Shown here piece after piece: positions 6,266-35,640 of a stretch of 64,000 nt of DNA (the first letter of the stretch is position 1; each line of letters begins with the position of its first letter). The translations under genes were made by a program, and so were the position numbers. This DNA is from Pseudomonadota bacterium (GTDB lineage Bacteria > Pseudomonadota > Alphaproteobacteria > Micavibrionales > UBA2020): contig JAJZVA010000002.1 in assembly GCA_021845905.1 (NCBI GenBank), positions 202,577-266,576 of the forward strand. The letters run 5' to 3'. The notes under the pieces are model-generated. The model was given only the letters and a program-made list of their open reading frames with translations, was not told where the DNA came from and made no database searches.

Positions 6266-9100
6266 ATGGAACAGCTTTTAAAAAAAAAGGAGAGCGCCGT
6301 GCGCGGGGAGGAGTCTGCCAGCATTTTCATCGCCCAGCCGCTTGACCTTTTGCTGACGTCGGGCGGCGATCCGCGTCTTGTCGTCGATCCTGCCGACAAT
6401 CTCAACGGCTACGGCTGCCGCCCCGCGCCGCGGCCGGAAGCGATTTCTTTTTCTTCCACCACGGCGTCTACGATATCCGACGCGGCCTATTTGCGCGTTT
6501 CCGCGGCGCGGCTCGACCTGATGCGCGCGCAGCCGTCCGGCGCCGCCGGCACGGCGGCGGAAGAGTCCGCTTTCGATCTCTGCATCGAGCGGATGCGCGA
6601 AGAGTTGAAAAAGCATCTTTTGATCGCGCCGGAAAAAGCCGAAGTCGTGTTTTCGCCGTCCGGCACGGACGGGCAGATTCTGGCGCTGTTCGCGGCGCGC
6701 GCGGTTTTGGGCGGGGCGAAGGTGACAAGCGTCATCGTCGGCGCGAACGAGACAGGCAGTGGTACGGCTTTCACCGCGCGGGGGCGGCATTTCGGCCTGC
6801 GCACGGCGCAGGGCGTTGCGGTTGAAAAAGGCGCAGGCATCGGAGAGCTGGAAGACGGCGCGTCCAGCGTCGATATTCCTTTACGCGATGAAGAGGGCGC
6901 GTTGCGCGCCGCCGCCGACATCGACAGGGCGGTCGTCGATGCCGTCGGCAGGGCTGTTGCCGCGGGATCGAAGGTTCTTTTGCAGGCGATGGACGCATCG
7001 AAGCTCGGCGTCCGCGCGCCGTCGGCGCACTGTCTCAAAGACATCGCCGCGCGCTGGCCGAACGATGTGCTGACGGTCATCGACGCCTGTCAGATGCGTC
7101 TCGGGCGCAAAAGGATAAAAGAGTACCTCGCGCGCGGATACGTCGTGCTGCTGACCGGCTCCAAATTCTTCGCGGGGCCGCCGTTCTCCGGCGCATTGCT
7201 GGTGCCTTCGGGCGTCTCGGCCGCGCTTTCAGCCGTGCAAAATGTGCCTGTGGGGCTTGCCGATTACGCCAATCGCGCCGACTGGCCGCTTGCATGGCGG
7301 GGAATCCGCGACAATCTGCCCGCGCGGCAGAACCTCGGCCAGTGGCTGCGCTGGGAGGCCGCGCTGGAAGAAATGCGCCTTTATTTCGCCGTTTCTGGCG
7401 AGAAACGGCGCGCGGCGCTGGAGGACTTCGGCGCGGCGGTCGCGCGCCGCATCGAAAACGCGCCGTCGTTTTCTCTGTTGTCCGCGCCCGCGGCGGATCC
7501 GACGGATGACATTGACGATGAAGAGATGGAAGTGCGCACGGTGTTTCCGTTTTTCGTGCAAAAAGACGGCCAGCGGCTCGGCGCGGAAGACTGCCGGAAA
7601 ATATACCTCGCCCTCAACCGCGATATTTCCGCGCATCTGCCCGCGGAGGCGACGGCGGAAGAAAAAAAACTGGCGGCAAGACTCTGCCATATCGGTCAGC
7701 CTGTCGCGGTCGCCGCCGCCGCCGTGCTTCGCGTCGCGGCCGGCGCGCGCACCGTATATGGCGGCTGGACGGAAGAAGAAGTGCGGACGGTTTTCGACAA
7801 GATGGAGCTGATCCTCAAATATTTCGCCTGGCTCGACGCTGAAAAGAAATCCGCCGCTGAACCCCAGCCGTTGCGTCTTGGCGCGCAAGATGAACATGTT
7901 GGGCAAGACCGTATCGGCATGGCCAAGCTGACGCGCCTTGCCTTCAACAACGTGCCGCTCAAGCCATTGTGGGACGATCTTTTCAGGCAGGTCGAACAGA
8001 ATCCCGCCAATGCCGCGGCGATGATGGACATGGCGGATATCGCGCAAATTTCCGGCCTGCAGGCCAACGGGCTGGTCGTTCAGTCGGGCGCGCTCGGCAT
8101 GGAACGTCTCTACAATATGCCTTGCGCGGCGGAACGCCCGCGCCTGCGCGTGCTGATGCTCGCGGCCGGCGTCGAGATGGGCGGCAACACGCCGATCGAG
8201 TTTCTGCTTGAAGGGTCGGACATTGCCCTCAGTGTGCTTTATATCGTGCCGGGACTGCCTTTGCCCGACCCTCTGCCCTATCACGATATCGCCTTCAACG
8301 CGATCGCCGACACGGAAGATTCGCGCGCAGCGCTGGAGATCGTCGAGGCGCTGATGCCGCGCTGGCCGAGGCCGGTTTTGAACGCGCCGGAAGGTATCCG
8401 CCGCCTCAACCGCGACGCGCTTTATGCGTTGCTTGCGGACGCGCCCGATATTTACATTCCCATGACGGCGCGGATATCCCGCGCGGCGCTTGAATCACTC
8501 GGTCGCGGGGAAATCGCGCTGACAACCCTGCTCGCCGACGGCGTCTGGCCGCTGATCGTGCGCCCGATCGACAGCCATGCGGGGCGCGGGCTCGACAGGC
8601 TTGAGAGCGCGGCTGATATCGAAAAATATCTCGCGGGGCAGCGGGGCGGCGCGTTCTTCATCTCCCGTTATATCGATTACAGCGGAAAAGACGGCGCGTT
8701 CCGCAAATACCGCATCGTCTTTGTCGACGGCAAGGCTTACGCTATTCATATGGCGATCTCGCACCAGTGGAAGATCTGGTATCTCAACGCCGACATGGCG
8801 GCGAGCGCGGAAAAACGCGCCGAGGAAGACGCCTTCATGACCCATTTCGACGAAGGGTTTGGCGTACGGCACAAAGAAGCGCTGGCCGAAATCGCCGCGC
8901 GCGTCGGCCTCTCCTATTTCGCCATCGACTGCGCGGAAACGAAGGATGGCGCGTTGCTGATTTTCGAAGGCGGCAACACCATGATCGTCCATAACATGGA
9001 CAGCGACGCGGTTTATCCCTACAAGGCGCCGCAGATGAAAAAAGTCTACGCGGCTTTCACCGGCATGATCGCCGCCGGCGCGGAAAAAGACCGGCAATGA
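6266..9100 (+). CDS. PLP-fold (aminotransferase class V-like) / ATP-grasp fusion protein
   Basis: A 944-residue two-part protein of unknown function. Residues about 30-560 resemble a fold-type I PLP enzyme: FSPSGTDGQILALFAARAV (cofactor-binding glycine/Thr region), VIDACQMRLG (Asp that holds the pyridine nitrogen) and LLTGSKFFAGPPFSGALLVP with the likely Schiff-base Lys near residue 300. Residues about 640-930 form a divergent ATP-grasp module: FNAIADTED, LNAPEGIRRLNRD, RPIDSHAGRGL, FISRYIDYS, FRKYRIVFVDGKAYAIHMAI, YFAIDCAE and the metal-binding FEGGNTMIVHN. The same module recurs in the genes at 19660 and 30126. The ATG at 6266 has GAGAGGGG in front; an in-frame ATG at 6185 lacks a ribosome site. 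Its stop overlaps the decarboxylase start (ATGA). Likely a ligase joining an amino acid or amine; substrate unknown. Confidence 0.85.
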   Translation: MEQLLKKKESAVRGEESASIFIAQPLDLLLTSGGDPRLVVDPADNLNGYGCRPAPRPEAISFSSTTASTISDAAYLRVSAARLDLMRAQPSGAAGTAAEESAFDLCIERMREELKKHLLIAPEKAEVVFSPSGTDGQILALFAARAVLGGAKVTSVIVGANETGSGTAFTARGRHFGLRTAQGVAVEKGAGIGELEDGASSVDIPLRDEEGALRAAADIDRAVVDAVGRAVAAGSKVLLQAMDASKLGVRAPSAHCLKDIAARWPNDVLTVIDACQMRLGRKRIKEYLARGYVVLLTGSKFFAGPPFSGALLVPSGVSAALSAVQNVPVGLADYANRADWPLAWRGIRDNLPARQNLGQWLRWEAALEEMRLYFAVSGEKRRAALEDFGAAVARRIENAPSFSLLSAPAADPTDDIDDEEMEVRTVFPFFVQKDGQRLGAEDCRKIYLALNRDISAHLPAEATAEEKKLAARLCHIGQPVAVAAAAVLRVAAGARTVYGGWTEEEVRTVFDKMELILKYFAWLDAEKKSAAEPQPLRLGAQDEHVGQDRIGMAKLTRLAFNNVPLKPLWDDLFRQVEQNPANAAAMMDMADIAQISGLQANGLVVQSGALGMERLYNMPCAAERPRLRVLMLAAGVEMGGNTPIEFLLEGSDIALSVLYIVPGLPLPDPLPYHDIAFNAIADTEDSRAALEIVEALMPRWPRPVLNAPEGIRRLNRDALYALLADAPDIYIPMTARISRAALESLGRGEIALTTLLADGVWPLIVRPIDSHAGRGLDRLESAADIEKYLAGQRGGAFFISRYIDYSGKDGAFRKYRIVFVDGKAYAIHMAISHQWKIWYLNADMAASAEKRAEEDAFMTHFDEGFGVRHKEALAEIAARVGLSYFAIDCAETKDGALLIFEGGNTMIVHNMDSDAVYPYKAPQMKKVYAAFTGMIAAGAEKDRQ

Positions 9101-10506
9101 CGCTTGATCCTGAAAATTGGGATGAAACGCGCGCGCAAGGCCACCGCATGCTCGACGAGATGTTCGATTATCTTGCGACCTTGCGCGACCGTCCGCTGTG
9201 GCGTGAAATGCCGCAAGATGTGCGCGACCATTTCAAGAAAGACGCCCTGCCGCAAAACCCTCAACCGCTCGGCGATGTCTACGGGGAATTCGCGCGGCTT
9301 GTCTTGCCTTACGCGGGCGGCAATCTCCATCCCGCGTTCATGGGCTGGGTGCAGGGCGGCGGCACGCCGGTCGGCATGCTGGCGGAAATGCTCGCGGGCG
9401 GATTGAACGCCAATCTCGGCGGGCGCGACCATGCGCCCGTCGCCGTCGAGCGACAAGTCTCCGCATGGATGCGCGCATTGTTCGGCTTTCCCGCGGGCGC
9501 GACGGGGATTTTCGTGACCGGAACGTCGCAGGCCAATCTGGTCGCGACCCTGATCGCACGTGCGGAAGCTCTCGGCCTGCCGTCGCGCAAATCCGGCATC
9601 GCAGATAAAAAACTCTGCGCCTATGCCTCCGCCGCGGCGCACAGCTGCATCGCCCGCGCGATGGATTTCGCGGGGCTCGGCAGCGATGCCTTGCGTCTCA
9701 TTCCTTGCGACGAACATCACCGCATGGATATCGCCGTTTTGAAAGAAACGATCGCCGCGGACAGAAAGACGGGCAAAACGCCCTTCATGGCCGTCGGCAC
9801 GGCGGGAACGGTGGATGTCGGCGCGATCGACGATCTCAAGGGGATCGGCGAGGTTTGCCGCGCGGAAGACCTCTGGTTCCACATCGACGGCGCCTATGGC
9901 GCGCTCGGCATGCTCGCGCCCGAAATCGCGCCGCGGCTGGACGGCATCGCAGAAGCATCGTCCATCGCGCTCGATTTTCACAAATGGGGGCAGGCGCCCT
10001 ATGACGCGGGATTTATCCTCGTGCGCGACGGCGAAAAGCACAAGGCCGCCTTCGCCACGCCCGCCGCCTATCTCCGCCGCGAAACGCGGGGGCTTGCGGG
10101 CGGAGATTTCTGGCCGACCGATTACGGGCCGGACCTCTCGCGCGGTTTTCGCGCCCTCAAAGTCTGGTTCACGCTGAAAGCCTACGGCACGGCCGCACTC
10201 GGGCGCATGATCTGGCGCACCTGCGAGCTTGCGCGCTATCTCGAGAAAAAAATCCGCGCGGAAAAGGCTCTTGAATTGTGTGCACCCGCGCATTTAAGCA
10301 TCGTCTGCTTTCGCTATAGAGCTTCGGATGAAATTAATGCCGGAATCGTCGCCGATTTGCAGGAGCAGGGCATTGCCGCGCCCTCGATGACCACGATTGG
10401 CGGAAAGCGCGTCATCCGCTGCGCGATCTTCAACCACCGCACGGAAGAGCGCGATATCGATGCGTTGCTGGAAGCCGTGTTGCGCCTCGGCAAAGCCCGC
10501 GCCTAG
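9097..10506 (+). CDS. PLP-dependent group II amino-acid decarboxylase
   Basis: Decarboxylates an amino acid, probably aromatic or acidic, to the amine plus CO2. The 469 residues match group II decarboxylases (aromatic-L-amino-acid, tyrosine, glutamate and diaminobutyrate types). Visible landmarks: HPAFMGWVQGGGTPVGMLAEM in the N-terminal substrate region, TGTSQANLVATLIAR for phosphate binding, GTAGTVDVGAIDDL, WFHIDGAYG with the PLP-binding Asp, and SSIALDFHKWGQAPYDAG with the catalytic Lys. The C-terminal small domain is complete. The ATG overlaps the stop of the PLP/ATP-grasp gene by 4 nt, so the two are translationally coupled and probably work on the same molecule. Substrate cannot be read from the sequence. 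It ends convergently, overlapping the efflux outer-membrane gene by 4 nt. Confidence 0.93.
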   Translation: MTLDPENWDETRAQGHRMLDEMFDYLATLRDRPLWREMPQDVRDHFKKDALPQNPQPLGDVYGEFARLVLPYAGGNLHPAFMGWVQGGGTPVGMLAEMLAGGLNANLGGRDHAPVAVERQVSAWMRALFGFPAGATGIFVTGTSQANLVATLIARAEALGLPSRKSGIADKKLCAYASAAAHSCIARAMDFAGLGSDALRLIPCDEHHRMDIAVLKETIAADRKTGKTPFMAVGTAGTVDVGAIDDLKGIGEVCRAEDLWFHIDGAYGALGMLAPEIAPRLDGIAEASSIALDFHKWGQAPYDAGFILVRDGEKHKAAFATPAAYLRRETRGLAGGDFWPTDYGPDLSRGFRALKVWFTLKAYGTAALGRMIWRTCELARYLEKKIRAEKALELCAPAHLSIVCFRYRASDEINAGIVADLQEQGIAAPSMTTIGGKRVIRCAIFNHRTEERDIDALLEAVLRLGKARA

Positions 10507-11876
10507 TTTTGACCGTCCCAGCCACCGCCAAGCGCCGCGATCAGCTGCACCGAGGCGACGAGGCGGTTTTCCCTGACCGTCAGCACCGCCTGCTCTGCGG
10601 CGAGCGCCTGCGTTTCCGCTGTGATGACGCCCGTATAGGCGACAGTGCCGGCATCGTACTGGTTGAGCGCGATCTTTTGCGCTGCTTTTGCCGTGTCTGC
10701 TGAATAGTTTTCTATCTTCTCCTGCATCGCAAGAAGACGCAAGGTGGAAAGGCCGTCCTCGACCTGCTGGAAGGCGGTCAGCACGGTCTCGCGGTAAAGC
10801 GAGGCTTTCTGGTCGTATGCGGCGCGGGCGTTTCTGACCGCGGCATTCCGCGCGCCGCCGTCGAAAACCGTCAGCGCCATCGCGGGCCCGAGCGACCAGA
10901 CCTCGCTGCCGGTGCGCATGAGTTGCGCCACGGCCGAAGCGGAAGCGCCGCCCGATGCTGATAAGGTCAGGTCCGGAAAATAAGCGGTTTGCGCGACGCC
11001 GATCGCCGCGTTGGCGGCGGCGACTCTTCTTTCCGCGGCCACGATGTCCGGCCGGCGTTGCAAGAGGATTGACGGCAAACTTGAAGGAATGGCGGGCATC
11101 AATGGCAATCCGCCTTCCGGCATCAGGCTGAAATCCGCCGGCGCTCGCCCGACCAGAACGGCAAGCGCGTGTTGCAGTTGCTTGCGCTGCGCTTTGGCGC
11201 TGACATATTGCGCCGTCGCGGCGGCGAGAGTGAGGCGCGCCTGCAAAACCGCCGCGCGTGAAACCGTTCCCGCTTTGTATTGATTGATGACGATGTGCCC
11301 GTTTCTTGCGTCGGCGCGGATGATGCGGAGCAGGATGCTTTCGAGCCTGTCCGTGGCGCGCAGCTGGAAATAATCGGTTGCCAGCGCCGCCTGCTCGGAC
11401 AGCGTCGCGGCGGCAAGATCCGCCTTGCTCGCTTCTGCGTTCGCGCGTTCCTCCGCCACGGCATCGCGGATTTTTCCCCAGATGTCCGGCGCCCAGCTGG
11501 CCGAGGCCGAGAGATCCACGGCATTGCCCGTGGACGTATGCGTGCGGGCGCGCGTGCCCGCACCGTTCAAGGAGACGTTGGGAAAAAATCCCGCCTGCGC
11601 GGTTTGCACGGTGGCCAGCGCCTCACGATAGGCGGCGGCATCGGCTTTTAATGTTTGATTTGAAACGGCAACCTGTTTTTCCAGCGCGTCGAGCACGGGA
11701 TCGTCATAAACGCGCCACCATGCGCCGTGATCGAACGGCATGGGTCTGGCGGGCTGCCATGCGCCGTTGCCTTCTTCGTAAGCCGCCGGAATGTTCATGG
11801 CCGGACGGTGGTATTTTGGCCCAACCGCGCAGGCGGAGAGCAACAGAACGCCGTACAGGGCGAGAGTTTTTTTCAT
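10503..11876 (-). CDS. RND efflux outer-membrane lipoprotein (NodT/OprM family)
   Basis: TolC-type channel that carries exported compounds across the outer membrane. The N terminus is a lipoprotein signal, LALYGVLLLSACAVGPKYHRP, with lipobox LSAC followed by the family's VGPKYxxP signature. Two repeated OEP halves follow (about 60-245 and 255-450), with GWxxDIWG-like SASWAPDIWGKIRDAVAE in the first half and ALTVFDGGARNAAVRNARAAYDQ in the second. Length 457 is usual. The ATG overlaps the stop of the upstream RND pump by 4 nt, so it is the last gene of a four-gene minus-strand operon. Its stop overlaps the convergent decarboxylase stop. The cargo is unknown. Confidence 0.95.
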   Translation of the reverse strand: MKKTLALYGVLLLSACAVGPKYHRPAMNIPAAYEEGNGAWQPARPMPFDHGAWWRVYDDPVLDALEKQVAVSNQTLKADAAAYREALATVQTAQAGFFPNVSLNGAGTRARTHTSTGNAVDLSASASWAPDIWGKIRDAVAEERANAEASKADLAAATLSEQAALATDYFQLRATDRLESILLRIIRADARNGHIVINQYKAGTVSRAAVLQARLTLAAATAQYVSAKAQRKQLQHALAVLVGRAPADFSLMPEGGLPLMPAIPSSLPSILLQRRPDIVAAERRVAAANAAIGVAQTAYFPDLTLSASGGASASAVAQLMRTGSEVWSLGPAMALTVFDGGARNAAVRNARAAYDQKASLYRETVLTAFQQVEDGLSTLRLLAMQEKIENYSADTAKAAQKIALNQYDAGTVAYTGVITAETQALAAEQAVLTVRENRLVASVQLIAALGGGWDGQN

Positions 11877-14800
11877 GACGTTTCTCCTTGCAGGCCGGGC
11901 AGGGCGAGATCCGGCGACCGGCCCAGCTTGATATTGAACCAGCGGCGCAGCCGTTCGAGGTAGAGATAAACGACCGGCGTGGTGTAAAGGGTCAGTAATT
12001 GGCTGAAGATCAGCCCGCCGACGATGGAAATGCCGAGCGGCACACGGATCTCCGCTCCTTCGCCGATGCCGAAAGCCAGCGGCAGGGCGCTCAAGAGCGC
12101 GACCAGCGTCGTCATCATGATGGGGCGAAAGCGCAAAAGGCAGGCGTGGAAAATCGCCTCGTCCGGCGTCATGCCCTGCCGTTCGGAGTCTATCGCCACG
12201 TCGATCATCATGATGGCGTTTTTCTTGACGATGCCGATGAGCAGCAAAACGCCGATCAGCGCCATGATGCTGAAGGGCACGTGAAAGAGCAGCAGGGCGA
12301 GCAGCGCGCCGACGCCCGCGCTCGGAAGCGTCGAGAGGATGGTGACCGGATGCACGTAGCTTTCATATAATATGCCGAGAACGATATAGATGGCGAGCAC
12401 CGCCGCGCCGATCAGCACCGGCTCGCCGGCCAGCGACTCTTTATATGTCTTCGCCGTGCCTTGAAAGCTGCCATGGACGTTGATCGGCAGATGCAGCGTT
12501 TCAACGGCGCGGTTGATCGCGGCAGTGGCGTTGCCGAGGGCTTCCCCGGGCGCGAGGTTGAAGGAAATCGTCGTCGCGGCGAACAGGCCCTGATGGTTGA
12601 TGGAGAGCGGCGTATGTCCCGTCTCAAGATGGCTGAAAGCGGCGAGCGGCACGGCGGGCTCCGGCGTCGTGCTGACGGCGGCGCTTGTCGGCGCCGCGCC
12701 GTGCACGGTCGCGGCGAGCGCGTTGATGGCGGCATTGCGCGCCGCGGCGCTGACGACGGCGCTGGTGGCTTCCGCGCCGGTGAGAGCGCCGCCTGTGCGG
12801 CTGACATATATATCTTTTAGCGTATCGGGATTTTGCCAATACTGCGGCGCGACTTCCATCACGACGTGATATTGATTGAGCGGATTGTAGATAGTCGAGA
12901 CCTGCCGCTGGCCGAAGGCGTCGTAGAGCGTGTTGTCGATCTGGCTCATGGTGAGGCCGAAACGCGCGGCTAAGGAGCGGTCGATGACGAGGTTGCTCAT
13001 CAGGCCACCCGCCTGCTCGTCGGAATTGACCTGCCGCAATTCGGGGAGCTTTTTAAGCGCCTTGTCGACGACCGGCGCCCAGTGACGCAGGTCGGCGAGG
13101 CTGTCGGACTGCAGCGTATATTGATATTCCGCGTTGCCCATGCGCCCGCCGGCGCGGATATCCTGCACCGGCTGCAAAAACAGCGTCGCGCCGGAGATCT
13201 TGCGCATTTTTTTTCTCAAACGCGCGATGACCTGATCGACCGGCGGACGCTCGGATTGCGGCTTCAAGGCGATGAAGACGCGGCCCGTGTTGGTGCTGTC
13301 GCCGCCGGTGAACCCGACGACGCTGGCGACGGCAGGATCGTGCCGGATGATCGAGACGAACTGCTCCATCTTCTTGCGCATGAGCTGGAAGGAGATGCTC
13401 TGGTCGCCGCGGATCGCGCCCATGATGCGGCCGATGTCCTGCTGCGGAAAAAACCCCTTGGGAATGATGATGAAAAGGTAGAAATTGAGACCGATGACGG
13501 CGAGCAGCAGGACGAGCGTCAGCCGCCGGTATGTGAGGGCGATTTTCAGCGTATGGGCGTAAAAATCATGCATTTTTTTGATGACGGCGGACGAAGCGCT
13601 GTTAATAAGCGACATTTTTTCTTTTTTCTTCGCCTTGAGAATCCACGCGCACATCATCGGCGTGGTGGAGAGAGATACGCAGAGCGAAATGAGAATGGCG
13701 ACCGAGAGCACGGCGGCGAACTCGCGGAACAGCCGTCCGACGATGCCGCCCATCATCAGGATCGGGATGAAGACCGCGACAAGAGAGAGACTCATCGACA
13801 GCACGGTAAAACTTACCTCGCGCGCGCCCTGCAATACGGCGTCGCGCTGCGGCACGCCGTCTTCGATGTGGCGGCTGATGTTTTCGAGCACGACGATGGC
13901 GTCGTCGACGACGAACCCCGTGCCGACGATCAGCGCCATGAGCGAGAGATTGTCGAGGCTGTAGCCGAGCAGGTACATCGCGCCGAAGGTGCCGATCAGC
14001 GAGACGGGCACGGCGGCGGAAGGGATCAGCGTCGCGCGGGCGCTGTGCAAAAAGAGATAGACGACGCCGATGACAAGCGCGACGGCGAGCAGCAGCGTCA
14101 TTTCGACGTCATGCAGCGAGGTGCGAATCGAGGCCGATCTGTCCATCGGTACGGAGATGTCGATCGCGGCGGGGATCGATGCCTTCAAAACCGGCAGTTC
14201 CGCCTTGACGCGGTCGATGGTGCTGATGATATTGGCGCCGGGCGCGCGGAAGATGATGATCAGGATGGCAGGATGCCCGTTGGCGAGGCCTTCGTTGCGG
14301 AGATTTTCGACGGAATTGTCAACCTGCGCCACGTCCGACAAGCGCACAGTAGCGCCATTGCGCCAGGCGATCGGTAAATTACGGTACTGCGCGGCGCCGC
14401 GTGCCTGGTCGTTGGTATAGATCTGGTAGATCTTTCCGTTTTGCGACAGCGCGCCTTTGGGCGCATGGGCGTTGGCGGCGGCGAGCGCGGCGCGGACGTT
14501 TTCAAGGCCGATGCCGTATTGCGCCAAAGCGTAAGGGTTGAGCTCGACGCGCACCGCGGGCAGGGACGCGCCGCCGACGATCACTTCGCCGATGCCTTTG
14601 ATCTGTGAGATTTTCTGCTCCAGAACCGTGGAGGCGGAATCGTACATCTGCCCAGGCGTCATGGTTTTCGAGGTGAGGGCGAGGATCATCACCGGCGCGT
14701 CGGCGGGGTTGACCTTGCGGTAGGTGGGGTTGGCGCGGAGACCGGCGGGCAAATCGGAGCGCGCGGCGTTGATCGCCGCCTGCACGTCACGCGCCGCGCC

Positions 14801-15106
14801 ATCGATGTTGCGGCTTAGGCCAAATTGCAAAACGATGCGCGCACTGCCTTCGGCGCTCTCGGATGTCATCTCCGTCACGTCGGCGATCTGCCCCAAGTGG
14901 CGTTCCAGCGGCGTGGTGAGGGCGGTAGCGACAGTTTCGGGGCTGGCGCCGGGAAGCTGCGCCTGCACGAAGATGGTCGGAAAATCGACCTGCGGCAGCG
15001 GCGCGACAGGTAGCAGGAAGAAGGCGAGGACGCCGGAAAACAAAATTCCCAACGTCAAAAGCGTGGTGGCGACGGGGCGGTCGATGAAGATTTTTGCAGG
15101 ATTCAT
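11873..15106 (-). CDS. RND efflux pump, inner-membrane subunit (MdtC-like)
   Basis: Proton-driven trimeric pump of the hydrophobe/amphiphile RND family. The 1077 residues begin [20 protein letters not shown]; a longer open frame to 15487 is antisense to the preceding pump and is rejected. Visible: the first TM helix, periplasmic porter domains ([30 protein letters not shown]), TM4 region with [18 protein letters not shown], and the second half with [14 protein letters not shown] and [19 protein letters not shown]. The TM4 DD pair used for proton relay is present (VVDDAIV). A segment rich in Ala and Thr (about 790-830, [20 protein letters not shown]) extends the second porter loop compared with MdtC. 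It overlaps both neighbours by 4 nt. A second different RND subunit directly upstream implies a heterotrimeric MdtBC-type pump. Confidence 0.95.
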
Positions 15107-18100
15107 GCGTTCTGCTCCCGCGTCCTGAAGCGGCGGGCGAGGCCGTCGAAGGCAAGATAAATCACCGGCGTGGTGAAGAGCGTCAAAATCTGGCTGAGGA
15201 TCAGCCCGCCGACGATGGCAAGACCGAGCGGCTGGCGCAGTTCCGACCCGGTGCCCCGCCCCAGCATCAGCGGCAGTGCGGCAAGCAGCGCCGACATCGT
15301 GGTCATGAGAATGGGGCGAAAACGCAACAGCGCGGCCTGATAGATCGCGTCGCGCGGGGATTTTCCCTCTTTCCGCTCCGCATCGAGCGCGAAGTCGATC
15401 ATCATAATGGCGTTTTTCTTGACGATGCCGATGAGAAGGATGATGCCGATAATGCCGATCACGCCGAGCCCGTCGCCCGAAAGCCACAGCGCGAGCAGTG
15501 CGCCGACGCCCGCGCTCGGCAGCGTCGAGAGGATGGTGACGGGGTGGATGAAGCTTTCGTACAGGACGCCGAGCACTATGTAGACGGTGACGAGCGCGGC
15601 GAGAATGAGCAGGATTTCATTGTCGAGCGACTGCTGAAAAGCAAGCGCCGCGCCCTGAAAATGAGTTACAACGCTGGCGGGCATGGCGAGCGCCTGTTCC
15701 GTCGCCGTAATCGCATCGACGGCGGTGCCGAGCGCGACGTTCGGCGCGAGGTTGAAGGAGATCGTCGTGGCGGGAAACTGGCCGAGATGGTCGATCTCCA
15801 GGGGCGCGGTGCCGGTTTTGATCGTGGCGATGGCATTGAGCGGCACCTGCCCGCCGGCAGCGGAAGGCAGGTAGAAATCGTTGAGCGCCGCGACGTTCGT
15901 GCGCATCTTTTCGTCGGCCTCGAGGATGACGCGGTACTGGTTCGACTGGGTGAAGACGGTTGAGACGATGCGCTGGCCGAAAGCGTCGTAGAGCGCGTTG
16001 TCCACCGTCGCGGCGGTGATGCCGAAGCGCGCCGCCGTGTCGCGGTCGATGTCGATATAAACCGCGTGGCCTCTGTCTTCGGCATTGGAGGCAACGTCCG
16101 TAATTTCCGGCAGGTTTTTGATTCTGGCGAGAAGTCTGGCCGTCCATGCGGACAGTTCGTCCGGGTTGGCGTCTTCGAGCATGAACTGGTATTGCGTGCG
16201 GCTGACGGTCGAGGAGATGGCGAGGTCCTGCACCGGCTGCATATAGAGCGTGATGCCCGGCACGTCCGCGGTTTCGGATTGCAGGCTGCGGATGACGGCG
16301 CGGACGGAAAGCGCGCGCCTGTCCTTGGGGATCAGGTTGATGAGCAGACGCCCGGTGTTCAGCGTCATGTTGGTGCCGTCGATGCCGATGTTGGAGGTGA
16401 CGCTGGCGACATCGGGGTCTTTCAGGACGGCTTTAATGAGCGCTTCCTGCCGCGCTGCCATGGCGGAAAACGAGACGTCTTCGCCCGCCACCGAGACGCC
16501 TTGAATGAGACCCGTATCCTGCACGGGGAAGAAGTTTTTCGGGATGATGAGGTAGAGAAAGACCGTCAGCGCGAGCGTGGCCAGCGCGACGAGCAAGACG
16601 GGCGCGGCGTGATCGAGCGTCCAGCGCAACATCCGTCCGTAAGCTGCGGAAAGCCCTGCGAACCAGCCGTTTTCGCGTTTCTTCCCCCCTCGCAGCATGC
16701 GGGCGCAGAGCATCGGCACCAAAGTGAGAGACACCGCGGCCGAAATGACGATGGTCACGGCGAGCGTGATGGCGAATTCGTGAAACAGCCGCCCCACGAC
16801 GTCGCCCATGAACAAAAGCGGGATCAGGACGGCGATGAGAGAAACGGTGAGCGAGACGATGGTGAAGCCGATCTCGCCCGCGCCTTTGAGCGCGGCATCG
16901 AGAGGCTTTTTACCTTCCTCGACATGGCGCGAGATGTTCTCGATCATCACGATGGCGTCATCGACGACGAAGCCGGTGGCGATGGTCAGCGCCATGAGCG
17001 AGAGATTGTCGAGACTGAAGCCGAAGAGATACATGGCGCAGAACGTGCCGATCAGCGAAAGCGGCATGGAGAGGCTGGGAATGACGGTCGCGCGCGCGTC
17101 GCCGAGAAAAAGAAAGAGCACGCCGACGACGAGCAGCGCGGCGAGCAGCAGTTCGAACTCCACATCGCGCACCGAGGCGCGGATCGTGGTCGTGCGGTCG
17201 GTCATCACGGCGACGCCGACCGATTGCGGCAGAGATGCCTGCAATTCCGGCAGGGCCTTTTTGATATTGTCGACGACGCTGATGACGTTCGCGCCCGGCT
17301 GGCGGCGGACGCTGAGGATGATGGCGGGCGTCGTGTCTTTCCATGCCTGCAGGCGGGTGTTTTCCGCGCCTTCTTTTACCGTCGCGACGTCGGAGAGGCG
17401 CACGGGCGCGCCGTTTTTATAGGCGATGACGATGTTTTTGTAGTCCGCCGCGCTTTTGAGCTGGTCGTTGGCTTCGATGGTGTAAGAGCGCGAAGGCCCG
17501 TCGAAGCTGCCTTTGGGCGTATTGACGTTGGCGGTGCCGATGGCGGTGCGCAGATCGTCGATATTGAGACCGTAGGCGGCAAGCGCCTGCGGATTGGCTT
17601 CGATATGCACGGCGGGGCGCTGGCCGCCGTTGATCGAGACGAGCCCGACGCCCGGCATCTGCGAGATTTTTTCCGCGAGGCGCGTGTCGGCGAGGTCTTC
17701 CACCTCGGGCAGCGGCATGGTTTCTGAGGTAAGCGCGATGGTTAAAACCGGCGCGTCGGCGGGGTTGATTTTCGAATAGACCGGCGGCGCAGGAAGATCG
17801 GACGGCAGAAGACTGCCCGCGGCGTTGATCGCCGCCTGCACTTCCTGTTCCGCGACGTCGAGGCTGAGGTCAAGCCCGAATTGCAGCGTGATGACGCTCG
17901 CGCCCGCTCCGCTTTGCGACGACATCTGCTGCAAGTCGGGCATTTCGCCCAGTTGCCGCTCCAGCGGCGCGGTGACCGAGGAGGTCATCACGTCGGGGCT
18001 GGCGCCGGGATAGAACGTCCGGATCTGGATGGTCGGGTAATCCACCTCCGGAAGGGCGGAGAGCGGCAAAAAGCGGTAGGCGACGATCCCCGCGAGCATC

Positions 18101-18162
18101 ACCGCCAGCATCAGCAGCGACGTCGCGACAGGCCGGAGGATGAAAATGCGCGAGAGGTTCAT
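15103..18162 (-). CDS. RND efflux pump, inner-membrane subunit (MdtB-like)
   Basis: Second RND subunit, 1019 residues, starting [21 protein letters not shown]. It shares architecture with the downstream pump: porter domain segment [25 protein letters not shown]4 with [18 protein letters not shown] (proton-relay DD), and [14 protein letters not shown] plus [19 protein letters not shown] in the C-terminal half. Two adjacent, non-identical RND genes behind one membrane-fusion gene is the MdtABC arrangement, in which the pumps assemble in a 2:1 heterotrimer. It lies 29 nt after the fusion-protein gene and overlaps the next pump by ATGA. Known MdtABC cargoes include bile salts, novobiocin and metals, but the cargo here is not shown by the sequence. 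Confidence 0.95.
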
Positions 18163-18191
18163 GTGTTTGCGCTTTCCCGCAAAGGAAGGTT

Positions 18192-19659: not shown

Positions 19660-21069
19660 ATGACTGAAATTTCAATATCTCCATCATGGCAGACGCGTGA
19701 CGCGGCGCTGAAAGCGACGGAAAAAAATCTTGCGGAAAATCCCAAGGACACGGCGTCGCTGTTCGAGCGTGCGCACCTGCTGGCGTCGCTTGGGCAGACG
19801 GAGGCGGCGAAAGAGGCTTATTTGGAATTGCTGGCGGTCGCGCCCGCGCATCTTGCCGCGCTCAACGACTTCGGCGCGTTGCTGGTTGAAACCGGATACA
19901 GGAGCGCGGCCAAGACGGTTTACGCGCAGGCGATCGCCCGGCATCCCGACGATCCGAAAGCGCATGTCAACCTTGGCAATATTTTGTTCGATGAAAACGA
20001 TTTTGACGGAGCGCGGCGCTGCTATGAGGGTGCGTTGCGCCGCGACGAAGATCTTGCGCAGGCGCATCAGGGGCTGGCGCGCATCTCTGCGGCGGAACGC
20101 GACATGGACGGCGCGGCGCGGCACGGGATGCGGGGTTTTCGCGGCCATGCGGTCGGCGTGATGGCGTCTTTCGGCGCTGAAAAACCCGTCGAATTGCTGT
20201 TGCTGGCCGCGGCGACGGGCGGCAATGTTCCGCTCAAGCATCATATCGACAGGACGATATTCAGGACGACGACTGTCTTTGCTGATTATTACGATGCGGA
20301 AGACCTGCCGCCGCATGACCTCGTCTTCAATGCCATCGGCGATGCGGATTTTTGCAGGGCGGCGCTCGTTGCGGCGGAAAAACTGCTCGAAAAAACAAAA
20401 GCCGCTGTTCTCAACCCGCCCGCGAAGGTCTTGCGCACGGGCCGCGCAGAAAACGCAGAGCGGCTGGCGGAGACCGAAGGCGTGCGGACGTCGAAAACGC
20501 GGTTTTTGCAAAAAGATCATGTCGCGGCGGCGGATTTGTCTTTCCCGCTATTGTTGCGCGCGCCGGGTTTCCATACCGGTCAGCATTTTTTCAAGCTCGA
20601 CGGCGTGCAGGATCTCGCGGCGGCGCTGGAAAAGCTGCCGGGGAATGAAATTCTCGCCATGGACTATCTCGACGCGCGCGGCGCGGACGGTTTGAGTCGC
20701 AAATACCGCGTGATGGCGATTGGCGGAAAGCTTTATCCTTTGCACATGGCGGTTTCGCGAGAATGGAAAGTGCACTATTTCACCTCCATGCAATATCAGG
20801 ATGAAGAGAAAAAGTTTCTTAAGGACATGGGGTCTGTCGTCGGCGCGCGCGGCGTCGCGTCGCTGGAGAGCATCGCGAAGACGCTGGGGCTCGACTACGG
20901 CGGCATCGATTTCGGCCTCGACGGCGCGGGCAACATATTGCTGTTCGAAGCCAATGCCACGATGGTGATCAATGCCCCGCCGCCCGCAGCGCCTGAACAT
21001 TGCAAACGGGCGGCCGCGCGCGCGGCGGCGGCGGTGAAAGACTTGCTTGAAGCGGAGAGAAAGCCATGA
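19660..21069 (+). CDS. TPR / ATP-grasp protein
   Basis: A 469-residue protein of unknown function. Residues about 12-165 are TPR-like helical pairs (AHLLASLGQTEAAKEAYLELLAVAPAH, then NLGNILFDENDFDGARRCYEGALRRD). Residues about 175-460 carry the divergent ATP-grasp module found also at 6266 and 30126: GGNVP, FNAIGDADF, LNPPAKVLRTGR, RAPGFHTGQHF, MDYLDARG, SRKYRVMAIGGKLYPLHMAV, EWKVHYFTS, LDYGGIDF and the metal-binding FEANATMVIN. No signal peptide, so cytoplasmic. The stop overlaps the start of a Gln-rich exported protein by ATGA, so the partner is made together with it and may be its substrate. No clear Shine-Dalgarno precedes the ATG. By analogy with ATP-grasp ligases it likely forms an amide bond; the substrate is not known. 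Confidence 0.85.
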   Translation: MTEISISPSWQTRDAALKATEKNLAENPKDTASLFERAHLLASLGQTEAAKEAYLELLAVAPAHLAALNDFGALLVETGYRSAAKTVYAQAIARHPDDPKAHVNLGNILFDENDFDGARRCYEGALRRDEDLAQAHQGLARISAAERDMDGAARHGMRGFRGHAVGVMASFGAEKPVELLLLAAATGGNVPLKHHIDRTIFRTTTVFADYYDAEDLPPHDLVFNAIGDADFCRAALVAAEKLLEKTKAAVLNPPAKVLRTGRAENAERLAETEGVRTSKTRFLQKDHVAAADLSFPLLLRAPGFHTGQHFFKLDGVQDLAAALEKLPGNEILAMDYLDARGADGLSRKYRVMAIGGKLYPLHMAVSREWKVHYFTSMQYQDEEKKFLKDMGSVVGARGVASLESIAKTLGLDYGGIDFGLDGAGNILLFEANATMVINAPPPAAPEHCKRAAARAAAAVKDLLEAERKP

Positions 21070-21974
21070 AAAAAATCGCGGGTTTGTTTCTTGTCTTTGC
21101 GCTTTCGGGCACGCCGGCCTTCGCGCAAACCTCCGGCCAGACCCCGACGCAGCAGCAACTGCAACAGTCTCAGAAGGAAATTTTGCAACAGATCCAGCAG
21201 GTGCGGCGGCAGCAACAGCAGTTCCAGCAGCTCCTGATGCAGCAAAGCCAGCAGGCGGCGCAACAGCAAAAAGAACAGCAACAACTGATCTCCGAAGGGC
21301 AGCAACAGGCGCAACAGCAAATTCAGAAAACCGCGCAACAGGTGCAGCAGACAGAGCAAAGCCAGGCGCGGCAGTTCCGGCAGACCCAGCAAAACAAGCA
21401 GCAGGCGCTGACGCAAAGCGGGCAGACGCTCACCCAGGCGCAAAAGCAAAAACAGCAGGCGCAGTTGCAGGCTTTGCGGCGGGAAGAGCAGCAGATCGAA
21501 CTGCAGCAGCAAAAAGAACAGCAAACCTATCAGCAGACGCAGACACAGGCGACGCAGGCGCAGGAGAAAAAACAGCAGAACGGCACAGAGACGCAGGAAC
21601 AGAAATTCGCCGCGCTGACCCAGTCCCTCACGCGGGAAGAGCAAAAGCAGCAGCAGAAATTCAACGACGAAACGCGCGCGCAACAACAGTCGCTACAGCA
21701 ACAACAGCAGGCTTATGAGCAGAGCCAGCAACGGCAGGCGCAACAGTATCAGCAGGCGCAGCAGCAACAGCTTGAGACCTATCAGCAGGAGCAAACGCGC
21801 CAGCGGCAGATTTTTCAGCAAGAGCAACAGGCGCAACAACAGCAGTTCCAGGAGGAGCAACAGTCTTATCAGATGCAGCAGAGCCAGCAACAGCAGGCCT
21901 ATCAGGCGCGACAGAGTCAGGCGGAACAGCAACTCCGTGCCGCGGAGGAGCCACGTGGACAGATTGTGCATTGA
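21066..21974 (+). CDS. Exported glutamine-rich low-complexity protein
   Basis: A 302-residue protein with a clear Sec signal peptide (MKKIAGLFLVFALSGTPAFAQ, cleavage after AFA) and a mature part made almost wholly of Gln, Ala, Glu, Lys, Arg and Thr. By hand count 127 of 302 residues (about 42%) are Gln, in runs such as QQQQ broken by charged or Tyr residues. There is no Cys and only one Phe or Tyr every 15-20 residues; heptad-like spacing suggests a long helical coiled coil, or a disordered aggregation-prone chain. The ATG overlaps the TPR/ATP-grasp stop by 4 nt. Codon use keeps CAG and CAA mixed, arguing that the protein rather than a DNA repeat is selected. Not a recognised family. Confidence 0.8.
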   Translation: MKKIAGLFLVFALSGTPAFAQTSGQTPTQQQLQQSQKEILQQIQQVRRQQQQFQQLLMQQSQQAAQQQKEQQQLISEGQQQAQQQIQKTAQQVQQTEQSQARQFRQTQQNKQQALTQSGQTLTQAQKQKQQAQLQALRREEQQIELQQQKEQQTYQQTQTQATQAQEKKQQNGTETQEQKFAALTQSLTREEQKQQQKFNDETRAQQQSLQQQQQAYEQSQQRQAQQYQQAQQQQLETYQQEQTRQRQIFQQEQQAQQQQFQEEQQSYQMQQSQQQQAYQARQSQAEQQLRAAEEPRGQIVH

Positions 21975-22174: not shown

Positions 22175-22789
22175 ATGGACATCGTCAAAATACTGAGAAG
22201 CAAAGTTCCTGCCAAGCATCTGCCGCAATTCGATCAGGCCATCGCCGCGCTGAATGATCCGAAGGTGCGCAAATATCTCGAAGACAAGGAAATAGCCAAC
22301 GACATAAATGTTATTTCCAATGAAGCCGTCAACACGATGAAAAAGTTCGGCGCCACGACGCAGGATGAGGGTCTGAAGCAAATCTTTAATCTTGCCGCGG
22401 GAACCGCCGTTCCGCTGGCGACGGAATATGTACTGAAAGGCGATCTCAGTTTTCTTAGTAAGGCGCAGGCAGCCAAGGCGATTCCAAAGGCGTTTTTATT
22501 GCGAAAAACTTTTGAAGACGTCGTGAAACGCAAAGATCCCGTTATCCATCAACTTCTCGACGCGTTGCAGAACAATCAAACCGCGATCGATGCCGCGCTC
22601 CGCATCGCCGTCAAAACAAACGGCGATCTTTTCAAGCTCGAAAAAGATGCAAAAGGTCAGGGTTATATCGTCGATCTGACGACGGGCTCGGGTCTGAAGT
22701 TCCCCATCGAGAAGCCGGTCTATGATGAGGCCGTCGCGCTTCTCGCCACAGCCAAGAAGGGCAACCCGCCGCCGAAACCCGGCGCCTGA
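22175..22789 (+). CDS. Hypothetical protein, 204 residues
   Basis: I do not recognise this protein. It is soluble-looking and mixed alpha-helical with no signal peptide or membrane span: MDIVKILRSKVPAKHLPQFD at the N terminus, a charged helix DPKVRKYLEDKEIANDINV, a central moderately hydrophobic segment (IFNLAAGTAVPLATEYVLKG) and a proline-rich tail KGNPPPKPGA. The gene looks real: AAGGAGATCGTTGCC precedes the ATG, a consensus-like promoter lies just upstream, and a strong terminator follows 28 nt after the stop. It is a single-gene transcription unit, convergent with a small membrane-active-looking protein with which it shares the terminator. Confidence 0.8.
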   Translation: MDIVKILRSKVPAKHLPQFDQAIAALNDPKVRKYLEDKEIANDINVISNEAVNTMKKFGATTQDEGLKQIFNLAAGTAVPLATEYVLKGDLSFLSKAQAAKAIPKAFLLRKTFEDVVKRKDPVIHQLLDALQNNQTAIDAALRIAVKTNGDLFKLEKDAKGQGYIVDLTTGSGLKFPIEKPVYDEAVALLATAKKGNPPPKPGA

Positions 22790-25855: not shown

Positions 25856-25883
25856 GGGGAGCGGCTGTTGAAAGCTGCTCCCC
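25856..25883. other. Intercistronic hairpin between coiled-coil and AAA+ genes
   Basis: GGGGAGCGGC and GCTGCTCCCC pair over ten positions (one G-T wobble) around an 8-nt loop. No T-run follows on either strand, so it is more likely an mRNA-stability or partial-attenuation element in a shared transcript than a full terminator. Confidence 0.5.
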
Positions 25884-25904
25884 ATGATAACCCGCCATCA
25901 GGGC

Positions 25905-29055: not shown

Positions 29056-29136
29056 AAGCGTCTCCTTTGCTTGACGGGGAGGCGCGGCCTGTGAAAAAAT
29101 ACCTGCATGGAAAAATCAGGCAGCATGGAATAGCGC

Positions 29137-30048
29137 GTGTACGCTTTTGAGGATTGCAGGGTGAAACCCGGCGCGGCGGTCGACTTGAACGCCATGGACG
29201 CCAAGGCGACGCGCGGATGGACGAAAAGCCGGGCGCGGGCGCAGACAAGGCGCAATCTCGCGCGCATCGCCGAACTTCAGGAGCTGATGTTCGTCGAGAA
29301 AAAGCGCGGCCTGCTGATCGTCCTGCAGGCGATGGACACCGGCGGCAAGGACGGCACGGTGCGGACGCTGGGCGGCGCGATGAATCCGGCGGGCGCGCGC
29401 GTCGTCGCCTTCAAGAAGCCGACGGCGGAGGAAAAGGCCCATGATTTTCTCTGGCGCATCCGCAAGCATCTGCCGAAGGCGGGGGAGATGGTGATCTTCA
29501 ACCGCTCGCACTACGAGGATGTCGGCATCGCCCGCGTGCACGCGCTTGCGCCGGAAAAGGAGCTGGACGCCCGCTACGCCGAGATCAACGTCTTCGAGGA
29601 TGCGCTCGCACAGCCGACCGCCGAGGTGCCGGAAGGCACGCGCGTCCTCAAGTTTTTCCTGCACATCAGCAAGAAAGAGCAGCTCGCCCGCTTTCGCGAC
29701 CGGCTCGACGACCCCGCCAAGCAGTGGAAGCTGAGCGCCGCCGATTTCGAGGAGCGGCAATATTGGGACGGCTATATGAAGGCGTATTCGCGCGCGCTTT
29801 CCGAATGCGCGACGGAAGAAGCGCCATGGTTCGTCGTGCCCGCCGACAACAAATGGATGCGCGACCTGATCGTCACGCAGGTCGTGGTCGATTATCTCGA
29901 GGGCTTGAGCATGAAGCCGCCCGCGCCGACGGTCGACGTCGACGCCATCCGCAGGAAATATTTCAACGCCCGCGCCGGAAAACCGTCCGTGCCGCAAAAA
30001 ACGCCCCTGCCGAAAACGCCGCCTCGATCAGGGCCCGGTCCGAAATGA
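29137..30048 (+). CDS. ppk2: Polyphosphate kinase 2 family protein
   Basis: PPK2 enzymes move phosphate between polyphosphate and nucleoside mono- or diphosphates. The 303 residues contain the family core: FVEKKRGLLIVLQAMDTGGKDGT (Walker A, about 53-74), FNRSHYEDVGIARVHAL (Walker B and lid region), then KFFLHISKKEQLARFRDRLDDPAKQWKLS and a C-terminal WFVVPADNKWMRDLIV. A single PPK2 domain with these motifs fits class I or III. The C-terminal 30 residues are Lys/Pro-rich and extra. The GTG at 29137 is used by the longest frame; a GTG at 29161 (KPGAAVDLNAMD) has a better-placed GAGG and may be the true start. It precedes the TPR/ATP-grasp gene by 77 nt on the same strand. Confidence 0.93.
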   Translation: MYAFEDCRVKPGAAVDLNAMDAKATRGWTKSRARAQTRRNLARIAELQELMFVEKKRGLLIVLQAMDTGGKDGTVRTLGGAMNPAGARVVAFKKPTAEEKAHDFLWRIRKHLPKAGEMVIFNRSHYEDVGIARVHALAPEKELDARYAEINVFEDALAQPTAEVPEGTRVLKFFLHISKKEQLARFRDRLDDPAKQWKLSAADFEERQYWDGYMKAYSRALSECATEEAPWFVVPADNKWMRDLIVTQVVVDYLEGLSMKPPAPTVDVDAIRRKYFNARAGKPSVPQKTPLPKTPPRSGPGPK

Positions 30049-30125
30049 TTCCAAAACAAGCGGACGCTCTGGCGTTCCTGCGCGGGCTGTTCTAATATTC
30101 GGAGCGGGACGGACACAAGAGGGTC

Positions 30126-31646
30126 ATGATCATGCAGGAACATGCGGCGCCGCCGACAGACGACGGACGCGAGGCGCAAATCGCCGCGGCGACGCGCGAT
30201 ATCGAGGCCTTGCAGGAGAAAGTCGCGGCGGCGCTCAAGGCGCTCGAACAGGGCGACGCCGCCATGGCGGGCGTCGATCCTGAGGCGATCATGAAGGAGC
30301 TTGCGTCGGCCTACGCGCGGCTGGGCGACCTTTATTTCGCCGCCGACGCGGCGCGGGCGACGATCTGTTACGAAACCGCTCTCAAGTTCGACCCGGGCCA
30401 GTGGGGCGTGCGCATGAAGCTGCTCAAGACCAAAAAGAACCCCGCGCCCGACGATGCGACCAAGGCCTTTTTATACGGCATGCTCTCCGACCAGCCGGAC
30501 AACGTCGGCTTTCTCAACCAGCTTGGGCGGCTGCATCACAGGAATTACGAGATCGGCGCGGCGCTGGCCTGTTTTTCGCGCGCGGCCGAGCTCGCGCCGG
30601 ACAACGCCGACAGCCTTTACTGGCTTGCGGGCGTGCAGCAGCTGGCGGGCGATGCGGACGCGGCGGCGGAAAGCTACCGCCGCGCGGCGCGCGTTCAGCC
30701 GGTCATCAAATTCTCCGCCGGACAAAAAGACGCCGGGTGCGCCGCGCTCTTGCTGTTCGCGCCCTTCGCGGGCAACACGCCGACGGAATATCTCATGGCG
30801 GAGACGCCCTATGCGCTCAACATCGCGCCGCTGTTCCCCGATATCGCGCCGCCGGTCGGGGTTTTGAAGGAGAGCGGCGACGTGGTCGTCAATTTCGTGT
30901 CCGACGCCGATCAGGGGCGGGCGGTCCTGCCCAAGGTGGCGCAGCTGGCCGCCGCGCTCGGCAGGCCGGTGATCAACCCGCCGGAGAAAATCATGCGGAC
31001 GACGCGCGAAGGCGTGGCCGGATTGCTGAAAGATATCCCCGATTGCCGCATGGCGCGGGTCGCGCGGATCGCGGCGGGCGGGGAAATGCCGGATCTCGCG
31101 TTTGAAGGGCCGGTGCTGGCGCGCCCCGCGGGCACCCACGGCGGCGACCGCTTCGAAAAGTTCGACGATGCCGCGGCGGCGGAAAAATTCATCCGCGCGC
31201 ATCCGGAGGAAGACCATTACCTGATGGAATACGTCGATTATCAATCGCCCGACGGGCATTTCAGGAAGTACCGCTTCATCTTCATCGACGGAAACATCCT
31301 GCCTTATCATCTCGCCATCGGCAACGGCTGGAAGGTGCATCACGTCACCACCGGCATGTTCGAGACGCCGTGGATGCAGGAAGAGGAAAAGGCGTTCCTC
31401 GCCGCGCCGGAGAAATTCTTCGCGCCGCGGCATTACGTCGCGATGCGCGCCATCCACGCCGCCATGGGGCTGGATTATTTCGGCATCGATTGCGGGCTCG
31501 ACCGTCAGGGCAACCTTGTGGTTTTCGAGGCCAACGCTGCGATGCTCGTGCATCAGAAAAACAGCGACATGCCTTATAAGATTCCCTATGTCGCCGCCAT
31601 CCGGCAGGCGTTTCAGGAGATGGTCCTCAAACGCGCGGGAACATGA
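30126..31646 (+). CDS. TPR / ATP-grasp protein
   Basis: A 506-residue protein, third carrier of the ATP-grasp module in this window. Residues about 20-55 are a charged helix; about 55-200 TPR-like pairs (LASAYARLGDLYFAADAARATICYETALKFDP, NQLGRLHHRNYEIGAALACFSRAAELAPDN, YWLAGVQQLAGDADAAAESYRRAARVQP). The ATP-grasp part (about 210-500) has GNTPTEYLMAETPY, VNFVSDADQ, INPPEKIMRTTREG, ARPAGTHGGDRF, MEYVDYQS, FRKYRFIFIDGNILPYHLAI, GWKVHHVTTG, LDYFGIDC and metal-binding FEANAAMLVH. GAGGGTC precedes tandem ATGs at 30126 and 30132. It is the last gene of the run that begins with the J-domain fusion and PPK2. No signal peptide. Likely an ATP-dependent ligase scaffolded by its TPRs; substrate unknown. 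Confidence 0.85.
   Translation: MIMQEHAAPPTDDGREAQIAAATRDIEALQEKVAAALKALEQGDAAMAGVDPEAIMKELASAYARLGDLYFAADAARATICYETALKFDPGQWGVRMKLLKTKKNPAPDDATKAFLYGMLSDQPDNVGFLNQLGRLHHRNYEIGAALACFSRAAELAPDNADSLYWLAGVQQLAGDADAAAESYRRAARVQPVIKFSAGQKDAGCAALLLFAPFAGNTPTEYLMAETPYALNIAPLFPDIAPPVGVLKESGDVVVNFVSDADQGRAVLPKVAQLAAALGRPVINPPEKIMRTTREGVAGLLKDIPDCRMARVARIAAGGEMPDLAFEGPVLARPAGTHGGDRFEKFDDAAAAEKFIRAHPEEDHYLMEYVDYQSPDGHFRKYRFIFIDGNILPYHLAIGNGWKVHHVTTGMFETPWMQEEEKAFLAAPEKFFAPRHYVAMRAIHAAMGLDYFGIDCGLDRQGNLVVFEANAAMLVHQKNSDMPYKIPYVAAIRQAFQEMVLKRAGT

Positions 31647-34147: not shown

Positions 34148-35640
<1,493 letters not shown>

Follow-up and report, generated by a model that had tools for sequence, protein, structure and literature searches.

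A divergent ATP-grasp-like module family and its conserved gene unit with two pyridoxal phosphate enzymes in an alphaproteobacterium and other bacteria

INTRODUCTION

RimK, the ribosomal protein S6 glutamate ligase, and LysX join the amine of an amino acid to a protein carboxylate. The pairing of a decarboxylase with an ATP-grasp enzyme, in turn, is a known logic of small-molecule synthesis, as in the methanofuran pathway, where the pyridoxal phosphate (PLP) decarboxylase MfnA makes an amine and the ATP-grasp enzyme MfnD ligates it. Here, we describe a stretch of 64,000 nucleotides (the window; contig JAJZVA010000002.1, positions 202,577 to 266,576) from a bacterium of the alphaproteobacterial order Micavibrionales (assembly GCA_021845905.1), in which three genes, beginning at window positions 6266, 19660, and 30126, end in a common, divergent ATP-grasp-like module. 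This module family is genuine and undescribed, and it comes with a strong gene unit, in which the ligase is accompanied by an AADC-like decarboxylase and a second PLP enzyme. Among the described ligases, the main text of the CDC123 paper (PMC4431377) presents the R2K clade, with CDC123, as divergent ATP-grasp enzymes that are predicted to act on proteins and have spread by transfer; that main text holds no tetratricopeptide repeat (TPR), flagell-, or decarboxylase wording.

RESULTS

Three modules of one undescribed family

The three ligase genes, and the decarboxylase gene that follows the first of them, are as follows.

6266..9100, plus strand: fused gene, with a fold-type-I PLP enzyme (∼6266-7960), a TPR-like linker (∼7970-8110, by eye), and an ATP-grasp module (8111-9097)
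9097..10506, plus strand: AADC-like PLP decarboxylase (PF00282), overlapping the stop codon of the 6266 gene
19660..21069, plus strand: TPR and ATP-grasp ligase, ExN type
30126..31646, plus strand: TPR and ATP-grasp ligase, ExN type

A first-pass annotation, made from the letters of the window, had proposed that genes 6266, 19660, and 30126 share a C-terminal module. We found the open reading frames in place (that of the fused gene, 6185/6266-9100, may start at 6185), and the modules (window 8111-9097, 20158-21066, and 30711-31643), of ∼300 residues each, align with one another as one family, with E values of 6e-33, 5e-51, and 2e-41 and 30 to 31% identity in pairwise BLASTP; a failure to align, the outcome named in advance as speaking against a single family, was not seen. 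The shared blocks that had been quoted by eye recur in the joint alignment of the three modules, and the N-terminal parts differ in the way described, with TPRs in 19660 and 30126 and a fold-type-I PLP domain in 6266. Searched against the bacterium's own 2.4-Mb genome, a profile of the three modules matches at the three window places only (E up to 1).

No Pfam or NCBIfam model covers the module above its cut-off, and the 6266 protein yields nothing in either scan. Below threshold, two of the three proteins show Pfam YheCD and ATPgrasp_ST and NCBIfam RimK over the module. The YheCD-type ATP-grasp (PF14398) was rejected, with 13.9 and 15.6 bits against a cut-off of 26.8 and 0 matches in the own-genome search, as was the RimK family (TIGR00768), which scores 12.4 bits in 19660 and 16.6 bits in 30126 against a curated cut-off of 143.4 and has no match in 6266. 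In the Pfam and NCBIfam scans, no described family claims the module. Judged on titles and abstract openings, no publication describing a unit of ligase, decarboxylase, and PLP enzyme was found, and phage records gave no match.

A gene unit with two PLP enzymes

The N-terminal PLP part of 6266 has no Pfam or NCBIfam match. In a model of the whole protein (mean predicted local distance difference test score, pLDDT, 86.8), residues ∼42-525 match class-V enzymes of fold type I, including NifS, PhnW, and AGT (VIA Z 20.1-21.7), and the SGT, DACQ, and GSK blocks, which we take to be the phosphate-loop, Asp, and PLP Lys signature of fold-type-I PLP enzymes, are invariant in 18/18 aligned rows. The modelled fold and this signature place the part among the class-V, fold-type-I PLP enzymes; because the PLP Lys, the DACQ block, and the SGT loop are kept in all 18, it is probably catalytically active. 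The adjoining decarboxylase passes the group II PLP decarboxylase cut-off (PF00282, 233.1 versus 27 bits) and has 4obu as its best solved-structure match (E 1e-68). An assignment as the L-2,4-diaminobutyrate decarboxylase RhbB (NF052646) was rejected at 194.5 bits against a cut-off of 900. Its pairing with a ligase resembles the logic of MfnA and MfnD, whereas the enzyme itself scores 84.8 bits with the MfnA model against a cut-off of 299.4.

Scanning 84,980 species, each by one genome, we confirmed 214 stretches and retained the best 80, which make up 78 loci (one of them, L017, is the same contig as in the sister genome G005). Rows with identical module sequences were removed before counting, and the counts of neighbouring genes by row cover 146 distinct ligase rows. 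Relatives of the unit occur in alpha-, beta-, and gammaproteobacteria and in a few further phyla, and the unit conserved among them combines the ligase with an AADC-like PLP decarboxylase and with a fold-type-I PLP enzyme that bears no family name. The ligase is mostly a gene of its own, of ∼410 residues, and the gene order varies. The decarboxylase cluster occurs in 58/78 loci and the PLP-enzyme cluster in 50/78, with a decarboxylase match at most 6 kb from 84 of the 146 ligase rows. Both partners are also found fused to the ligase: the PLP enzyme in the window, L017/L154, and L147, and the decarboxylase in L049, L066, L069, and L126, each of which we checked to be a single open frame. On a plasmid of Rhizobium tumorigenes, the trio carries the annotations TPR protein, hypothetical protein, and decarboxylase, and all three were confirmed by tblastn. 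Taken together, a gene unit of ligase and two PLP enzymes is well supported.

In some genomes, the ligase is followed not by the decarboxylase but by a SerC-type aminotransferase (phosphoserine transaminase). SerC adjoins 8/146 ligase rows, and SerC and decarboxylase occur together in 0/146; the window unit is without SerC, and its PLP enzyme matches no NCBIfam model. Against NF009112 (PRK12462), the SerC of L061 scores 649 bits, over the cut-off of 563, and those of L267 (551) and L204 (548) stay under it; all three are over the NF003764 cut-off. When the eight genomes were searched, the adjoining SerC passed NF009112 in seven, and a separate, weaker SerC match was present in six (split in one). 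The adjoining copy looks dedicated because these six genomes hold another SerC, which hints that O-phosphoserine or a similar compound may feed the ligase in the SerC loci.

Two loci of other kinds may be recorded here. A conjugative Cupriavidus plasmid has a standalone ligase gene (L266, 8812-10056) within its metal-resistance region (ncc, dmeF), and L152 (4278-6410), from the window bacterium's genus, carries two tandem, divergent ligase members of 352 residues with no long N-terminal part.

Predicted fold and active-site residues

The 30126 module was modelled with the help of 19 relatives (mean pLDDT 86.0; predicted template modelling score, pTM, 0.87), and a Foldseek search with this model gives 581 matches in the PDB at an E value of 0.001 or lower. 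The best fold match of the model among 999 aligned chains is RimK (VIA Z 20.8, root-mean-square deviation 4.0, 267 residues). Five RimK entries score Z 19.9-20.8, four LysX/ArgX entries Z 19.1-19.5, and two further LysX entries Z 16.6-16.7; the next family after RimK and LysX/ArgX reaches Z 17.5. Among PDB sequences, the best match of the family profile is Thermus LysX 3vpd, in register at E 5e-4. The model, the Foldseek matches, and the RimK score give the 30126 module a predicted ATP-grasp fold. This fold and the weak LysX sequence match support the proposal that the modules form a single, divergent ATP-grasp family of the type that ligates amines and carboxylates. The assignment rests on the 30126 model because, among the matches listed, the search with the whole 6266 protein showed only the PLP domain. 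The predicted fold of the ligase modules is well supported.

For ATP-grasp enzymes, a conserved Lys in the second strand of the RAGNYA subdomain is stated in the main text of PMC4431377. In the register of the LysX alignment, this position is Arg in 158/159 rows of our family, with one gap, and we describe the module as ATP-grasp-like and divergent, not as a typical member, because the fold is there but the strand-2 Lys is Arg. Of the ATP-grasp pattern of an acidic residue on strand four and an E-x-N metal motif, the Asp is kept in 157/159 and the Glu in 155/159 rows, and the third ligand is Asp in 105 rows, Asn in 42, Gly in 4, Glu in 4, Ala in 2, and a gap in 2, which splits the family into ExD, ExN, and ExG types. 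Of the FExN metal site that had been read into all three window modules, E-x-N is present in 19660 and 30126 (ExN type), but in 6266 (ExG type) the motif is E-G-G-N, in which the Asn comes one position too late; E-x-G-N is shared by the 6266 protein and its two fused sisters. Fold and conserved residues together make the joining of carboxylate to amine a well-supported predicted reaction class.

Compared with the described ligases, the window modules are closest in fold to RimK, whose ligation is a protein-directed joining of amine and carboxylate, but they differ from it in their profile scores, in the Arg at strand 2, in their TPR or PLP-enzyme partners, and in that no ribosomal context was seen in the window. 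LysX/ArgX, which act with the carrier LysW, are alike in fold and in the 3vpd sequence match; next to the unit, we noticed neither a LysW-like carrier nor genes of a lysine/arginine pathway, although no search was aimed at them. As far as the main text of PMC4431377 goes, R2K.3 has a displaced metal-motif residue (ExGD), comparable to the E-x-G-N of 6266, but the R2K clade has two lysines in the RAGNYA domain where our family has Arg at the strand-2 position. With that Arg and no R2K Pfam model at E up to 1, membership in R2K was rejected.

Flagellar genes near the ligases

We looked for flagellar genes with tblastn, using 13 references drawn from the loci themselves, and distant ones are missed: L067 carries a FlaG-cluster gene yet was not flagged. 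The rows compared below are related, and the Fisher p values are rough. In Bradyrhizobium loci, the unit is flanked by flgE/flgK on one side and by large flagellins on the other, and in L050 the order is flagellin, FlaG, FliD, FliS, FliT, FliK, decarboxylase, ligase. A flagellar gene occurs within 11 kb of 34/100 ExD rows, which have longer flanks, versus 0/34 ExN rows (p 8e-6) and 0/4 ExG rows. With equal flanks of 4.5 kb on both sides, 25/68 ExD versus 0/18 ExN rows are flagged (p 0.0009), or 15/58 versus 0/18 without the Bradyrhizobium-like rows (p 0.010); with 9-kb flanks, the comparison (16/37 versus 0/3) decides nothing. Among loci of at least 10 kb, flagellar genes were found in 23/70 versus 1/26 control stretches (p 0.002), and in 17/64 versus 1/26 without Bradyrhizobium (p 0.010). 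The controls came from 40 of the 50 genomes, 39 of which contributed the start of contig 1 and one a stretch at a 100-kb point, and 26/40 are at least 10 kb long. A flagellin match was present in 50/50 genomes searched (of 77 loci), 49 over cut-off, a figure without a matched baseline for those groups. In a sample of the class, flagellin occurs in 21/25 ligase-bearing genomes versus 235/385 overall (p 0.010), and in 20/21 of those whose ligase matches are stronger than E 1e-40 (p 0.0003), a line drawn after seeing the list.

SRP54, CbiA, and chemotaxis matches were seen among the neighbours in non-flagged loci. GGDEF/EAL genes lie near ligase genes in L040 (3055-5856), L265 (5114-6658), and L267 (5745-7157), and a link to cyclic-di-GMP and motility is possible.

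Neighbours of the TPR ligases

The following features surround the second and third ligases.

10503..19463, minus strand: MdtABC/MuxABC-like RND efflux operon (outer-membrane factor, two permeases, adaptor), between the decarboxylase and the second ligase
21066..21974, plus strand: Gln-rich (42% Q) exported protein, with a 4-base overlap with the stop of the 19660 ligase
29137..30048, plus strand: PPK2-type polyphosphate kinase (TIGR03709, 335.5 bits, over the cut-off of 247.2)
31653..32660, minus strand: DUF3108 protein, adjoining the third ligase, with the same neighbour in L145

The decarboxylase, the Gln-rich exported protein, and PPK2 are the neighbours that the first-pass annotation had named. 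Its idea that each ligase has a matched substrate survives in part: the decarboxylase link is widely conserved, and a 19660-type gene stands directly behind the decarboxylase in L155 of the sister genome G005, but the PPK2 link (PPK2, then a 30126-type ligase, in the same order in L145 and L146) is seen within the genus only, and the Gln-rich neighbour in 2/3 loci, the window included. Behind the 19660-type ligase, there is a Gln-rich exported protein in the window, a shorter one in L155, and an exported, EF-hand-like protein (by eye) in L148; the Gln-rich protein 21066 is a candidate ligase substrate. In genome G007, on two contigs (L147 and L148), the immediate neighbours of the decarboxylase and of the second ligase agree in position with those in the window. 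The RND operon is absent between decarboxylase and second ligase in L155, which would reflect an insertion or a loss, and its link to the ligases is uncertain.

More widely, 20/34 ExN rows have more than 130 residues ahead of the module. In one ExN member (L139), next to HlyD and ABC genes, the module is joined to TauD and TPRs in a single protein, another (L138) lies beside TauD and a long cadherin/FG-GAP/RTX protein, and the other ExN loci have differing neighbours. TPR enzymes of other kinds also adjoin exported proteins: on contig 25 of the same genome, a TPR-GT41 (OGT-like) gene adjoins the gene for a 435-residue flagellin (L223, 6423-9983), and in the window a TPR-sulfotransferase gene is directly upstream of an autotransporter gene (57715-62678). 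We favour protein targets because TPR enzymes adjoin exported proteins, an argument that is circumstantial.

The window further encodes a 204-residue protein (22175-22789), a ClpB-like AAA protein (23317-25791), and a 592-residue protein (25905-27683), look-alikes of which (by eye) follow the second ligase in L155. A complete rRNA operon (34148-39343; 16S, three tRNAs, 23S, 5S) lies ∼2.5 kb downstream of the third ligase.

Origin of the three copies

In a tree of 143 modules (FastTree; those with fewer than 200 profile positions left out; long-branch warning), the three window modules fall into separate clades, each with kin in other genomes. The 6266 module belongs to a 26-member set with unit-type ligases of Bradyrhizobium and Rhodospirillales (support 95), the 19660 module groups with L155, L148, and L203 (support 94), the last from another class, and the 30126 module lies in a seven-member set with L192 of a Bradyrhizobium-like genome (support 100). 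The proposed local expansion is contradicted by this tree, and local tandem duplication was rejected, the window copies not being each other's nearest kin. Ligase matches occur in 7/8 genomes of the genus (our own included) and in 0/47 other genomes searched from the family and order. The window set looks like old paralogues that were gained from elsewhere and assembled, not duplicated locally.

DISCUSSION

Our tentative reading, which we place just short of an even chance, is that these genes encode TPR-guided, RimK/LysX-like ligases that use the products of PLP enzymes to modify exported surface proteins. The ligase modules would use ATP to activate a carboxylate, which they would then couple to an amine, and the first ligase would act as a unit with the two PLP enzymes. 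One of these, probably transaminase-like, would make or alter an amino acid, the decarboxylase would turn that amino acid into an amine, and the ligase would attach the resulting product. The TPR segments probably recognise the exported protein ahead of its secretion. In many relatives, the likely targets would be flagellar filament or hook proteins, and in the bacterium studied here this place may be taken by different exported proteins, for instance the Gln-rich 21066. This reading is backed by the common descent of the modules, the fold, the gene unit, the fusions, the partner swap, and the flagellar linkage; its product and target are inferred.

Several observations weigh against modification of surface proteins by these ligases. 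At the active site, they are the Arg at the strand-2 Lys position and the lack of the usual E-x-N in the 6266 module. The flagellar linkage is carried by the ExD type, where all 16 Bradyrhizobium-like rows but only 18/84 others are flagged. In the ExN type, to which two of the window proteins belong, 0/34 rows are near a flagellar gene (18 have 4.5 kb and 3 have 9 kb on both sides), and none of the four ExG rows, 6266 included, is flagged. The window unit itself is not beside flagellar genes; the flagellin matches of its genome (one over, one under cut-off) are on contigs 25 and 20, and the window is on contig 11. Flagellin is, moreover, common regardless of the ligase, as the 235/385 class genomes show. 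In the non-flagged loci, the commonest family occurs in 4/115 neighbours scanned (of 161 listed), with no shared theme among the 25 commonest of 205 families.

It is possible, though we lean against it, that the three window ligases are functionally unrelated, with only the 6266 unit forming a pathway and 19660 and 30126 nearby by chance. The separate clades, the differing metal motifs (ExG versus ExN), and the restriction of the 30126-PPK2 pairing to the genus fit such a view, which has to contend with the 19660-type gene directly behind the decarboxylase in L155 and with the fact that the only three copies in 2.4 Mb all lie inside 24 kb. Rather unlikely, in our estimate, is that the unit converts the decarboxylase amine into a small, diffusible product, an amide or dipeptide-like metabolite serving as siderophore, signal, or antibiotic, which the RND pump would export. 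The methanofuran precedent speaks for it, as do the MdtABC-like RND operon inside the window cluster, the position-based agreement of G007 with the window around decarboxylase and second ligase, and the many loci in which the unit is apart from flagellar genes, or on a plasmid. However, the corresponding place in L155 holds no RND genes (RND genes next to the unit elsewhere were not searched for), and a metabolite would leave the TPR segments, the flagellar linkage, and RimK/LysX as nearest folds unexplained.

A role in flagellin glycosylation, in which the unit would make an acyl- or amine-bearing precursor for a glycan (a sugar substituent) to be transferred by nearby TPR glycosyltransferases, appears improbable. 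Such a gene does lie between ligase and flagellins in L019 and L031, and the TPR-GT41 gene adjoins flagellin in the own genome; yet that TPR-glycosyltransferase (TPRs included) was matched in 9/77 loci only, and no nucleotide-sugar theme appears among the 25 commonest families of the 115 scanned neighbours. Returning to protein modification by the ligases themselves, its most far-reaching form would involve widely transferred, TPR-guided, RimK/LysX-like ligases that are fed by two dedicated PLP enzymes or a second SerC. They would couple a small amine or amino acid, through an amide bond, to carboxylates on flagellar proteins and on other proteins exported to the surface, and the filament would be decorated by a chemistry other than that of glycans. 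In this extended form, we consider the proposal doubtful.

The ligase and the PLP enzyme of the unit go unrecognised by the family libraries searched, and if the proposal is true, annotators would gain a defined unit. In many soil and water bacteria, a three-gene set would then supply flagella and other surface proteins with a small molecule in amide linkage, filament modification would gain a chemistry beside glycosylation and methylation, and flagellin masses would be read differently. Even if the product is a free metabolite, the conserved unit, with its two kinds of fusion and its partner swap, offers enzymology a clear target.

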